Made by a program: the position numbers and the translations under genes
Notes under the pieces: model-generated
The model's input: the letters and a program-made list of their open reading frames with translations, nothing else
Database searches by the model: none
What the model was told of the DNA's origin: nothing
Part shown: positions 51,528 to 54,575 of the stretch, piece by piece
Layout of the letters: the number at the start of each line of letters is the position of its first letter
How positions within the stretch are numbered: position 1 is the first letter of the stretch
NCBI RefSeq assembly: GCF_001279725.1
Contig: NZ_LGDE01000001.1
Span: 203,810-267,809 of the forward strand
Length of the DNA stretch: 64,000 nt
Source of the DNA: Streptomyces sp. WM4235
GTDB taxonomy: Bacteria; Actinomycetota; Actinomycetes; Streptomycetales; Streptomycetaceae
Direction of reading: 5' to 3'

Positions 51528-51533
51528 TACCCT
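51528..51533 (+). promoter_or_regulatory. -10 hexamer (TACCCT) of the leuS leader
   Basis: TACCCT lies 6 bases before the ATG of the leader peptide (51540), which would be translated from a leaderless transcript. Confidence 0.6.
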
Positions 51534-51539
51534 GACGCC

Positions 51540-51578
51540 ATGCGTGCCGTACGCCTTCTGCTTACCGAGCCGCGCTGA
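51540..51578 (+). CDS. leuS leader peptide (12 residues, three consecutive Leu codons)
   Basis: ATG 51540 to TGA 51578 encodes MRAVRLLLTEPR, with Leu codons CTT CTG CTT at 51555-51563. Three Leu codons in a row in front of leucyl-tRNA synthetase, followed by mutually possible RNA stems and an intrinsic terminator, is the layout of transcription attenuation by ribosome stalling. The peptide has no other likely function. I recall attenuators predicted for branched-chain amino acid genes in actinobacteria; whether leuS of this lineage was included I cannot confirm. Confidence 0.75.
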   Translation: MRAVRLLLTEPR

Positions 51579-51628
51579 TCAGTCCCGACCCCATCGAGCC
51601 CCAAGGATGCGGTCGGCATCGGCGCGGC
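51569..51628 (+). promoter_or_regulatory. alternative RNA stems of the leuS attenuator
   Basis: GCCGCGCTGAT (51569-51579, over the leader stop) can pair with ATCGGCGCGGC (51618-51628), 11 bp with one G-T pair. Inside it, 51587-51595 can pair with 51606-51614 with one mismatch. A ribosome at the leader stop or stalled on the Leu codons would change whether the long stem forms. Confidence 0.55.
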
Positions 51629-51630
51629 GT

Positions 51631-51654
51631 CCCCTCCTGTGCGAGGGGTTTTTT
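51631..51654 (+). terminator. intrinsic terminator in the leuS leader (attenuator)
   Basis: CCCCTC (51631-51636) pairs with GAGGGG (51643-51648) and is followed at once by six T (51649-51654). A T-run is rare among terminators in this window, and this one stands 50 bases before leuS, so it must be conditionally passed. Confidence 0.8.
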
Positions 51655-51704
51655 CGTTTGGGCAGGCAGAGACGGCAGAGACGATCGATGGAGCTTCAGA
51701 AATC

Positions 51705-54575
51705 ATGAGCGAGACGAACACCCCGGCCCCCGAGGCGGCCGAGGGGCACCGTTACACGGCTGCCATGGCCGCCGACATCGAGGCACGCTGGCAGGACGTA
51801 TGGGACGCGGAGGGGACCTACGAGGCCCCCAATCCGACGGGTGACCTGGCCGGGGACCCCGCGGTCGTCGCGCGCCCCAAGAAGTTCATCATGGACATGT
51901 TCCCGTACCCGTCCGGCGCGGGGCTGCACGTCGGCCACCCGCTGGGGTACATCGCCACCGATGTCTTCGCCCGTCACCAGCGGATGACCGGCCACAACGT
52001 CCTGCACACCCTGGGCTTCGACGCCTTCGGCCTGCCGGCCGAGCAGTACGCCGTGCAGACCGGCACGCACCCGCGGGTGTCGACCGAGGCGAACATCGAG
52101 AACATGAAGGTCCAGCTGCGCCGGCTGGGTCTGGGACACGACCGGCGGCGCTCGTTCGCCACGATCGACCCGGACTACTACAAGTGGACCCAGTGGATCT
52201 TCCTGCAGATCTACAACTCCTGGTACGACACGGACGCCGCCAAGGCCCGGCCGATCGCCGAGCTGGTCGCCGCCTTCGAGGACGGCTCCCGTGAGGTTCC
52301 GGGTGGCCGCGCGTGGGCCGGGCTGACCGCGGGCGAGCGGGCCGACGTGCTGAACGGCTTCCGGCTGGCGTACGCCTCCGACGCGCCCGTGAACTGGTGC
52401 CCCGGGCTGGGCACCGTCCTGGCCAACGAGGAGGTCACGGCCGACGGCCGCTCCGAGCGCGGCAACTTCCCCGTCTTCAAGGCCAAGCTGAGCCAGTGGA
52501 ACATGCGGATCACGGCGTACGCCGACCGTCTGCTGGACGACCTGGACGCGCTGGACTGGCCCGAGGCCATCAAGTTGCAGCAGCGGAACTGGATCGGCCG
52601 CAGCGAGGGCGCGCGCGTCGACTTCGCCGTCGGCGAGGACGCCGTCACGGTGTTCACCACGCGTCCCGACACGCTGTTCGGCGCCACCTACATGGTGCTG
52701 GCGCCCGAGCACGAGCTGATCGAGAAGATCGTCCCGGCGGAGTGGCCCGAGGGCACCCGCCAGGTGTGGACCGGCGGTGCGACGAACCCCCGCGAGGCCG
52801 TCGACGCGTACCGCAAGCAGGCCGCGTCCAAGTCGGACGTCGAGCGACAGGCCGAGGCCAAGGACAAGACCGGTGTCTTCACCGGCGCGTTCGCGATCAA
52901 CCCGGTCAGCGGCGAGAAGGTGCCGGTCTTCATCGCGGACTACGTGCTGATGGGCTACGGCACCGGCGCGATCATGGCCGTCCCGGCGCACGACACCCGC
53001 GACTTCGCGTTCGCGCAGGCCTTCGAGCTGCCGATGCGCTGCGTCGTGGAGCCCTCCGACGACCGCGACGCCGACCCGACGGAGTGGGACGACGCGTTCG
53101 CCTCCTACGACGGCACGATCGTCAACTCGACCGGCGAGGGCATCACGCTGGACGGCCTGGGCGTCGTCGAGGCCAAGGCCGCGATCACCGAGTGGCTGAC
53201 CGGGCGCGGCGTCGGCGAGGGCACCGTCAACTTCCGCCTGCGCGACTGGCTGTTCAGCCGCCAGCGCTACTGGGGCGAGCCCTTCCCGATCGTCTACGAC
53301 GAGGACGGCGTCGCGCACCCGCTGCCCGACTCGATGCTGCCCTTGGAACTGCCGGAGGTCGAGGACTACTCGCCGCGCACCTTCGAGCCGGACGACGCCG
53401 CGTCGAAGCCGGAGACCCCGCTGTCTCGCAACGAGGCGTGGGTCGACGTGGAACTGGACCTGGGCCGCGGCGAGGGCGTCAAGCGCTACCGCCGCGAGAC
53501 CAACACCATGCCGAACTGGGCCGGCTCCTGCTGGTACGAGCTGCGCTACCTGGACCCGAACAACTCCGAGGCGCTGGTCGACCCGGCGATCGAGCAGTAC
53601 TGGATGGGTCCGAGCGAGAACGCCCCGCACGGTGGTGTCGACCTGTACGTGGGCGGCGCCGAGCACGCGGTGCTGCACCTGCTGTACGCGCGCTTCTGGT
53701 CGAAGGTGCTGTTCGACCTGGGCCACGTCTCCTCGGTGGAGCCGTTCCACAAGCTCTTCAACCAGGGCATGATCCAGGCCTACGCCTACACCGACGCGCG
53801 CGGGGTGTACGTCCCGGCGGCCGAGGTCGAGGAGCGCGACGGCGGCTACTTCCACCAGGGACAGCCCGTCAAGCGTGAGCACGGCAAGATGGGCAAATCC
53901 CTGAAGAACGCCGTCACGCCCGACGAGATCTGTGAGGAGTACGGCGCGGACACACTGCGCCTGTACGAGATGGCCATGGGCCCCCTGGACGTCTCCCGTC
54001 CGTGGGACACCCGCGCCGTCGTCGGCCAGTACCGTCTGCTGCAGCGCCTGTGGCGCAACGTGATCGACGAGGAGACCGGCGAGGTCACCGTCGTGGACGG
54101 CGAGCCCGGCGAGGACACCCTGCGGGCCCTGCACAAGGCGATCGACGGGGCCGGCGCCGACATGGCCGCACTGCGCTTCAACACGGCCATCGCGAAGATC
54201 ACCGAGCTGAACAACGCCCTGACGAAGGCCGGTCGGCCGCTGGAGCGCTCGGTCGCCGAGCGGCTGGTGCTCCTGGTCGCCCCGCTGGCGCCGCACATCG
54301 CCGAGGAGCTGTGGCACCGGCTGGGCCACGGCGAGTCGGTCGTCCACCAGGACTTCCCGGTGGCGGACCCGGCGTACGTCGTGGACGAGAGCGTGACGTG
54401 CGTCGTGCAGGTCAAGGGCAAGGTCAAGGCACGGCTGGAGGTGCCGCCGGCGATCTCCGAGGCGGACCTGGAGCAGCTGGCCCTGACCGACGAGGGCGTC
54501 GTCGCGGCGCTCGGCGGCGCGGAGATCCGCAAGGTCATCGTGCGGGCGCCGAAGCTGGTGAACATCGTCATCTGA
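51705..54575 (+). CDS. leuS: Leucyl-tRNA synthetase
   Basis: The 956-residue class I synthetase charges tRNA-Leu. HIGH is HVGH (about 75) in PYPSGAGLHVGHPLGY; the KMSKS loop is KMGKS at 728-732. The CP1 editing domain (about 300-500) contains VFTTRPDTLFGATYMVLAPE and MAVPAHDTRDFAFA. The C-terminal domain ends MVxxIVI-like (KLVNIVI). ATG 51705 has GGAG about 11 bases upstream. It is preceded by a leader peptide and terminator, so expression likely responds to charged tRNA-Leu. Confidence 0.97.
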   Translation: MSETNTPAPEAAEGHRYTAAMAADIEARWQDVWDAEGTYEAPNPTGDLAGDPAVVARPKKFIMDMFPYPSGAGLHVGHPLGYIATDVFARHQRMTGHNVLHTLGFDAFGLPAEQYAVQTGTHPRVSTEANIENMKVQLRRLGLGHDRRRSFATIDPDYYKWTQWIFLQIYNSWYDTDAAKARPIAELVAAFEDGSREVPGGRAWAGLTAGERADVLNGFRLAYASDAPVNWCPGLGTVLANEEVTADGRSERGNFPVFKAKLSQWNMRITAYADRLLDDLDALDWPEAIKLQQRNWIGRSEGARVDFAVGEDAVTVFTTRPDTLFGATYMVLAPEHELIEKIVPAEWPEGTRQVWTGGATNPREAVDAYRKQAASKSDVERQAEAKDKTGVFTGAFAINPVSGEKVPVFIADYVLMGYGTGAIMAVPAHDTRDFAFAQAFELPMRCVVEPSDDRDADPTEWDDAFASYDGTIVNSTGEGITLDGLGVVEAKAAITEWLTGRGVGEGTVNFRLRDWLFSRQRYWGEPFPIVYDEDGVAHPLPDSMLPLELPEVEDYSPRTFEPDDAASKPETPLSRNEAWVDVELDLGRGEGVKRYRRETNTMPNWAGSCWYELRYLDPNNSEALVDPAIEQYWMGPSENAPHGGVDLYVGGAEHAVLHLLYARFWSKVLFDLGHVSSVEPFHKLFNQGMIQAYAYTDARGVYVPAAEVEERDGGYFHQGQPVKREHGKMGKSLKNAVTPDEICEEYGADTLRLYEMAMGPLDVSRPWDTRAVVGQYRLLQRLWRNVIDEETGEVTVVDGEPGEDTLRALHKAIDGAGADMAALRFNTAIAKITELNNALTKAGRPLERSVAERLVLLVAPLAPHIAEELWHRLGHGESVVHQDFPVADPAYVVDESVTCVVQVKGKVKARLEVPPAISEADLEQLALTDEGVVAALGGAEIRKVIVRAPKLVNIVI

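Follow-up and report, generated by a model that had tools for sequence, protein, structure and literature searches.

The leuS gene of Streptomyces sp. WM4235 lies within the window, the 64,000-nucleotide stretch of DNA analysed here. Directly upstream of the gene the window contains a short reading frame with consecutive Leu codons and a terminator, as in the described Streptomyces leuS attenuator and in the S. lividans leader LeuL2. Two features are those of attenuators of the trp, his and leu type: the short frame is rich in cognate codons, and a predicted intrinsic terminator, whose stem covaries outside the genus, stands between this frame and the gene. The leuS leader is very probably a ribosome-mediated transcription attenuator that senses Leu-tRNA, with an anatomy that is visible in the window and a leucine response and transcript end that are predicted from it.

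An original prediction made from the letters of this DNA had listed a TACCCT box, a 12-residue frame beginning six bases later, the codons CTT CTG CTT, an 11-bp stem, an internal stem and a terminator with six T, and all of these lie where it placed them (Table 1). The 11 bp of the long stem span the leader stop codon, and nine of these pairs are present in the consensus of 56 genus sequences. Because the ATG follows the -10 box by six bases, the expected RNA would lack space for a ribosome-binding site in front of the leader start. The proposal that the leader peptide is translated from a leaderless mRNA agrees with this gap, and the S. lividans ortholog has been reported as leaderless (PMC8079986). 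The folding energy of positions 51540-51740 (201 nt) was unremarkable when compared with shuffled sequences (z -0.31), and single-sequence folding was rejected as a proof of the element. Since the single sequence is no more stable than its shuffles, the case for the element rests on comparison.

Table 1. Features of the leuS leader region, in window coordinates.
Feature	Position	Strand	Remarks
-10 box TACCCT	51528-51533	+	Predicted transcription start 51540 (A of ATG)
Leader peptide reading frame MRAVRLLLTEPR, 12 codons, leaderless by position	51540-51578	+	Ortholog of S. lividans LeuL2
Putative regulatory Leu codons CTT CTG CTT	51555-51563	+	Codon counts in relatives
Small hairpin at the RNA 5' end	51542-51546 with 51550-51554	+	Weak: 78.6% of cells paired outside the genus
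Long stem, 5' arm, overlapping the last leader codons and stop	51569-51579	+	Folding, covariation
Long stem, 3' arm	51618-51628	+	Folding, covariation
Inner stem	51585-51590 with 51611-51616, plus 51592-51595 with 51606-51609	+	Folding; genus covariation
Predicted intrinsic terminator: hairpin CCCCTC/GAGGGG (51631-51636/51643-51648) and six T (51649-51654)	51631-51654	+	
Block GGCAGAGACGATCGATGGAGCTT between terminator and leuS	51674-51696	+	Kept in most displayed genus alignment rows
leuS ribosome-binding GGAG, inside block GGCAGAGACGATCGATGGAGCTT	51690-51693	+	By inspection
leuS, leucine–tRNA ligase, 956 aa	51705-54575	+	TIGR00396 leuS_bact, 898.4 bits, cut-off 548.4

Published leaders upstream of leuS

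The leuS leader is a real regulatory element that is already known, and a leaderless attenuator at this position is not new. Published work is cited here from excerpts of the papers. Classical candidate attenuators were predicted before leuS in S. coelicolor and S. avermitilis (Seliverstov et al. 2005, PMC1262725); like the window, they have a Leu-codon leader frame with claimed antiterminator and terminator hairpins before leuS. They differ from the present case in being described for two species only, and the word “leaderless” occurs nowhere in the main text of that paper. A study of native 5' ends in S. lividans TK24 reported LeuL2 (SLIV_24828), with the sequence MRAVRLLLSEPR, which as in the window is leaderless, is followed by a hairpin and U run and lies directly before leuS (PMC8079986, 2021). 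The window peptide MRAVRLLLTEPR differs from LeuL2 MRAVRLLLSEPR by one residue and is its ortholog. The same study catalogued several leaderless leader peptides in S. lividans, so such peptides are no new departure either; its excerpts contain no test of mechanism and no comparison of the leader beyond S. lividans. The excerpts of PMC3896937 hold nothing on leuS, and no report of a class-wide leuS leader was found in the literature searched, a search that most subscription journals lay outside.

The published leuS cases found thus come from three Streptomyces species, while the comparison made here reaches much of the class, with a mostly leaderless geometry among the members that were resolved. 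What is added is the range beyond the genus, together with the question of how a leader whose hairpins are not mutually exclusive switches between termination and read-through, which is one for a laboratory Streptomyces. If the mechanism is true, the leader makes the amount of a synthetase depend on the charged form of its own tRNA. The bacterial group that contains Streptomyces makes many antibiotics. Should the leader sense charging, it ought to be induced by inhibitors of LeuRS.

Conservation within the genus

Of 199 genus genomes sampled, 198 contain a blastn match to the 183-base leader stretch. The 190 genus leaders that were read comprise 110 of these 198 genome matches, all from the better-scoring, listed part, and 80 named records. 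The 110 genome leaders consist of 30 loci from the blastn listing and 80 that were fetched, with some strains shared with the named records. The latter are the best 80 of 500 by LeuS protein, not by leader, with LeuS N-termini up to 99% identical to that of the window, and two carry non-Streptomyces names. ‘Actinobacteria bacterium OV450’ (L118) and ‘Microtetraspora glauca’ (L154) have LeuS N-termini 97% and 90% identical to that of the window and the same leader; these names may be outdated.

All 190 leaders keep a TANNNT box, an ATG, 12 codons, Leu-Leu-Leu and a terminal PR, with a gap between box and ATG of six bases in 188 and seven in two. The original prediction had looked to other Streptomyces for conservation of the Leu codons, and in these leaders the run is kept. 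The order of Leu run, stop codon, long stem, terminator and leuS is also kept in the genus alignment. Among 66 further fetched loci, some from the same genomes, a scan resolved the leader frame in 62, the others being L233, L243, L252 and L334.

Spread beyond the genus

To follow the leader further we used an RNA model, R1, built from 56 genus sequences, and samples of genomes at successive ranks that overlap one another. R1 matched 150 of 150 genomes and 17 of 17 genera in the family sample, 197 of 197 genomes in the order sample (15 of these in two other families), and 105 of 296 in the class sample, 77 of them outside the genus. In the phylum sample it matched 14 of 198, two outside the class, one of which was weak (E 0.0025). 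R1 matched neither of two genus genomes, G045 and G001. The latter, 79% complete, gave a weak leader hit by blastn (E 3.6e-4) and yielded no leuS match. G045 (L346), listed as 100% complete, has another leuS type (42-55% identity) with no leader seen; it is possible that leuS was replaced there along with the loss of the attenuator.

R1 also misses members, as seen in 11 of the 191 R1-negative class genomes that were inspected. All 11 have leuS, and three (G484, G488 and G490) have a divergent leader, that of G484 with Leu-Leu only; the scan saw no leader in the other eight. One locus, L337 (in G504), has upstream of leuS a -10-like TAGGCT, a GTG and a reading frame ending CCGCGCTGA with no Leu run (by eye), which is perhaps a decayed leader.

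For a distant set we fetched 80 matches: 20 came from the family sample and 60 from the class sample, which has 78 matches beyond the genus. As expected, R1 found all 80 again. A LeuS match (tblastn, E < 1e-3) adjoins 74 of them, and the six lacking one are five stretches of 245-426 bases and one (L330) of 709 bases. NCBIfam gave leuS_bact as the best family for 10 of 10 proteins, namely the window LeuS and nine partial divergent pieces, the pieces scoring under the whole-protein cut-off. G669 has two leuS-like loci (L275 and L318), 42% and 81% identical to the window LeuS over different parts and each with such a leader, where contamination is possible.

In 74 of the 80 distant leaders the -10 box, a gap of six or seven bases, an ATG or GTG and the Leu run could be resolved, the start not being placed in six. 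For the TANNNT box with this spacing to the start codon the count is therefore 74 of 80, a conservation that is partly by construction as R1 includes the -10 and start codon columns. The Leu run has three or four codons in 71 of the 74 and two in three. Together with the genus set this gives 270 leaders, of which five failed an anchor and one lacked the full block, leaving 264 for the counts of codons, nine-pair long stem, extension and spacing. For their third Leu codon, 189 of 190 genus and 69 of 74 distant leaders use CTT (258 of 264 overall) and the rest use CTC, the search pattern allowing only these two, and CTT is used for none of the 74 Leu codons of leuS itself. The peptide ends in PR in 52 of the 74 distant leaders and differently in the others. 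Some genera have an early stop (LLLT then stop) or a longer peptide, and there the long stem is rebuilt in other letters. As peptide ends vary and the stem is rebuilt, it is the RNA and not the peptide end that is conserved. These comparisons suggest one conserved leuS device across much of the class.

Covariation of the stems

Within the genus the stems vary little. The 56 aligned sequences show no change in the terminator stem, and in the long stem only G-U and U-A changes, at two pairs. The outer six pairs of the inner stem show compensating changes (A-U to G-C in 11 of 56), and this stem is gapped in 52-55 of the 80 distant sequences.

Outside the genus, 651 of 666 cells are paired in the first nine long-stem pairs, compared with 622.7 on average and 634 at most in 500 shuffles across species, where arm spacing was fitted per sequence before shuffling and not refitted, which favours the observed value. 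In the alignment of the distant set (A2), 95.1% of cells are paired against 87.4% in shuffles, and 109 cells have two-sided changes against 23.9; such changes occur at 19 of 26 pairs, including four of nine in the long stem (helix 2) and four of six in the terminator (helix 4). On all five measures the observed value lay beyond that of every one of 500 shuffles, a comparison that can be inflated by the fitting of A2 to the structure of the model and by shuffles that keep relatedness. Mutual information on an ungapped anchor was left unused, since linker length varies and puts it out of register.

By comparison, then, the element is not a chance pattern, because all 190 genus leaders keep box, gap, start, length and Leu run and the pairs covary outside the genus. 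That frame and stems are accidents of a high-GC intergenic region would fit the unremarkable fold of the single sequence, but matches in 198 of 199 genus and 150 of 150 family genomes, along with the covariation, make this explanation exceedingly improbable.

How the leader could switch

In the mechanism that we favour, RNA polymerase would start at the A of the leader ATG, as the distance from the -10 box and the S. lividans report indicate, and a ribosome would load on the leaderless 5' end of the RNA. Given charged Leu-tRNA the ribosome would traverse the three Leu codons, reach the stop and cover the 5' arm of the long stem. Formation of the terminator would then end transcription near 51654. 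In leucine shortage a ribosome waiting at Leu1 would leave this arm just free, the long hairpin would in a last step reduce termination, and leuS would probably be switched on.

The edge of a ribosome usually lies 12 bases past the first base of its A site. When Leu1 occupies the A site this edge falls at 51567, just short of the first base of the arm, 51569; when the stop codon does, it falls at 51588, and the ribosome then covers the arm. An arm that is free at Leu1 and covered at the stop is, in this model, the layout of an antiterminator.

Several results weigh against this reading. We modelled 164 distinct genus leaders, obtained from the 190 by dropping four in which the terminator pattern was unmatched and merging identical ones; Leu stalls were modelled for the genus only. 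Whether the RNA was free or the ribosome stalled at Leu1 to Leu3, the terminator core pair had a median probability (P) of 1.0 and fell below 0.5 in none of the 164. The long hairpin and terminator are not mutually exclusive in these stalled-ribosome models, and the terminator stays formed because the two have no bases in common. P fell below 0.5 in 12 of 164 with the ribosome at Glu and in 22 of 164 with it at the stop codon, the opposite of what the mechanism expects. Once Leu3 occupies the A site, the ribosome overlies a portion of the long arm. An extension of the long stem, with a bulge, into the base of the terminator was considered and rejected, as it is not enriched: its values of 0.86 (genus) and 0.53 (elsewhere) compare with 0.89 and 0.55 in shuffles. 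Some genus members are also more divergent: of four fetched, one has MRARRLLLSGPR, two (L335 and L336, from G037 and G156) have MRAVRLLLLRPR and MRAARLLLLRPR with the four-codon run CTC CTT CTT CTC, and the frame of one was unresolved by the scan. Finally, codon substitution in the S. coelicolor ilvB leader is reported to have been without effect (PMC1262725).

Thermodynamic folding with ribosome-masked segments does not support, in the form given, the earlier proposal that stalling alters the fold and so removes the terminator, whereas the other parts of that interpretation, the Leu-codon leader, the leaderless geometry and the terminator before leuS, were supported. A second run, limited to the free RNA and the stop-codon stall and with another 3' end, placed the free terminator at P below 0.5 in none of 190 genus leaders and eight of 70 others (the 74 minus four without a GGGG terminator arm); with a ribosome at the stop codon the counts were eight of 190 and seven of 70. 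A competitor fold at the stop-codon stall lowers P to 0.095 in this strain, yet with values below 0.5 in only 22 of 164 it was set aside as not general.

The two helices lie close together. Counting G-U as a pair, zero to two unpaired bases separate long stem and terminator in 262 of 264 leaders; gaps of 0, 1, 2 and 3 bases occur in 110, 1, 78 and 1 of the 190 genus leaders and in 42, 26, 5 and 1 of the 74 others. This geometry bears on a possible, though not the likeliest, alternative in which the long hairpin aids termination by stacking on the terminator; stalling at Leu2 or Leu3 would then let the ribosome disrupt the base of the hairpin and so weaken termination. The gap is zero or one base in 179 of 264 leaders, although two in the window, and a ribosome at Leu3 spares only the upper long stem, both of which suit stacking. 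A ribosome at the stop codon covers the arm as well, however, so full translation would also weaken termination unless release is fast. The alternative is a variant of the same attenuator, with the same regulatory outcome and the opposite sign for the hairpin, and its odds overlap with those of the best explanation.

We thus favour attenuation with a putative antiterminator that lies close to the terminator without overlapping it, or else with a hairpin that helps termination by stacking. A fuller proposal, offered tentatively and rather doubtful as a whole, is that an old leuS attenuator runs across much of the class on leaderless RNAs with no shared bases, and that the hairpin ahead of the stalled ribosome hinders closure of the terminator in the exit channel of the polymerase.

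A constitutive terminator is an unlikely alternative explanation for the same data: the leader frame would merely tune basal leuS level or mark a small RNA, and leucine would elicit no response. The models found no thermodynamic switch, and the excerpted literature holds no response data, both of which speak for it; the Leu run nevertheless recurs before leuS across the class as other residues vary, in a search whose pattern required two to three Leu-like codons.

Comparison with other sensing leaders

T-box riboswitches are sensors of uncharged tRNA that stand before synthetase genes. The statement that no T-box motif is seen here was borne out: region 50000-53000 has 13 Rfam matches at E values up to 10, none of them to a T-box family. 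Sensing in this leader would go via a translated frame, unlike in T-boxes. T-box riboswitches of synthetase genes are mentioned in PMC1262725. Leaderless polycysteine leader frames have been described in mycobacteria (Canestrari et al. 2020, cited in PMC13236596). These resemble the window in being leaderless, short, amino-acid-sensing frames of an actinobacterium, and differ in sensing Cys, in preceding other genes and in being termed translation attenuation. The ilvB1 attenuator of M. tuberculosis resembles the mechanism proposed here in its ribosome-mediated transcription attenuation, its branched-chain codons and a stop-codon ribosome that masks the antiterminator; according to the description in PMC13236596 its antiterminator and terminator exclude each other, whereas those of the modelled leuS leader do not.

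The region between terminator and leuS

A second layer of control after read-through, in which base pairing between the Leu-codon stretch and the GGCAGAG region before leuS influences leuS translation, appears improbable. The lowest-energy fold of 51540-51740 does join these two stretches, and the GGCAGAG region is mostly conserved across the genus alignment, but a CTC at Leu1, found in 21 of 190 genus leaders, would cost one pair (by inspection). The LEU element described for leuA, not leuS, is a pseudoknot whose base stem joins Leu codons to the ribosome-binding site of the gene (PMC1262725). A coding role for the conserved block before leuS was rejected: the leuS frame is open upstream, but in at least one relative (L038) the block is out of frame (by inspection).

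By eye, GGCAGAGAC occurs as two tandem copies at window 51665-51682 upstream of leuS, and the second copy forms the beginning of this largely genus-conserved block. In several other genera (L274, L276, L278-L280 and others) a stretch like CATGTCCGG recurs after the terminator, just past the U run (by eye). Further upstream in the window, two tRNA-Ala (GGC) genes lie on the same strand about 600 bases apart, at 50667-50740 and 51341-51414, and the second is followed at about 51421-51457 by a strong inverted repeat that is likely its terminator (by eye).

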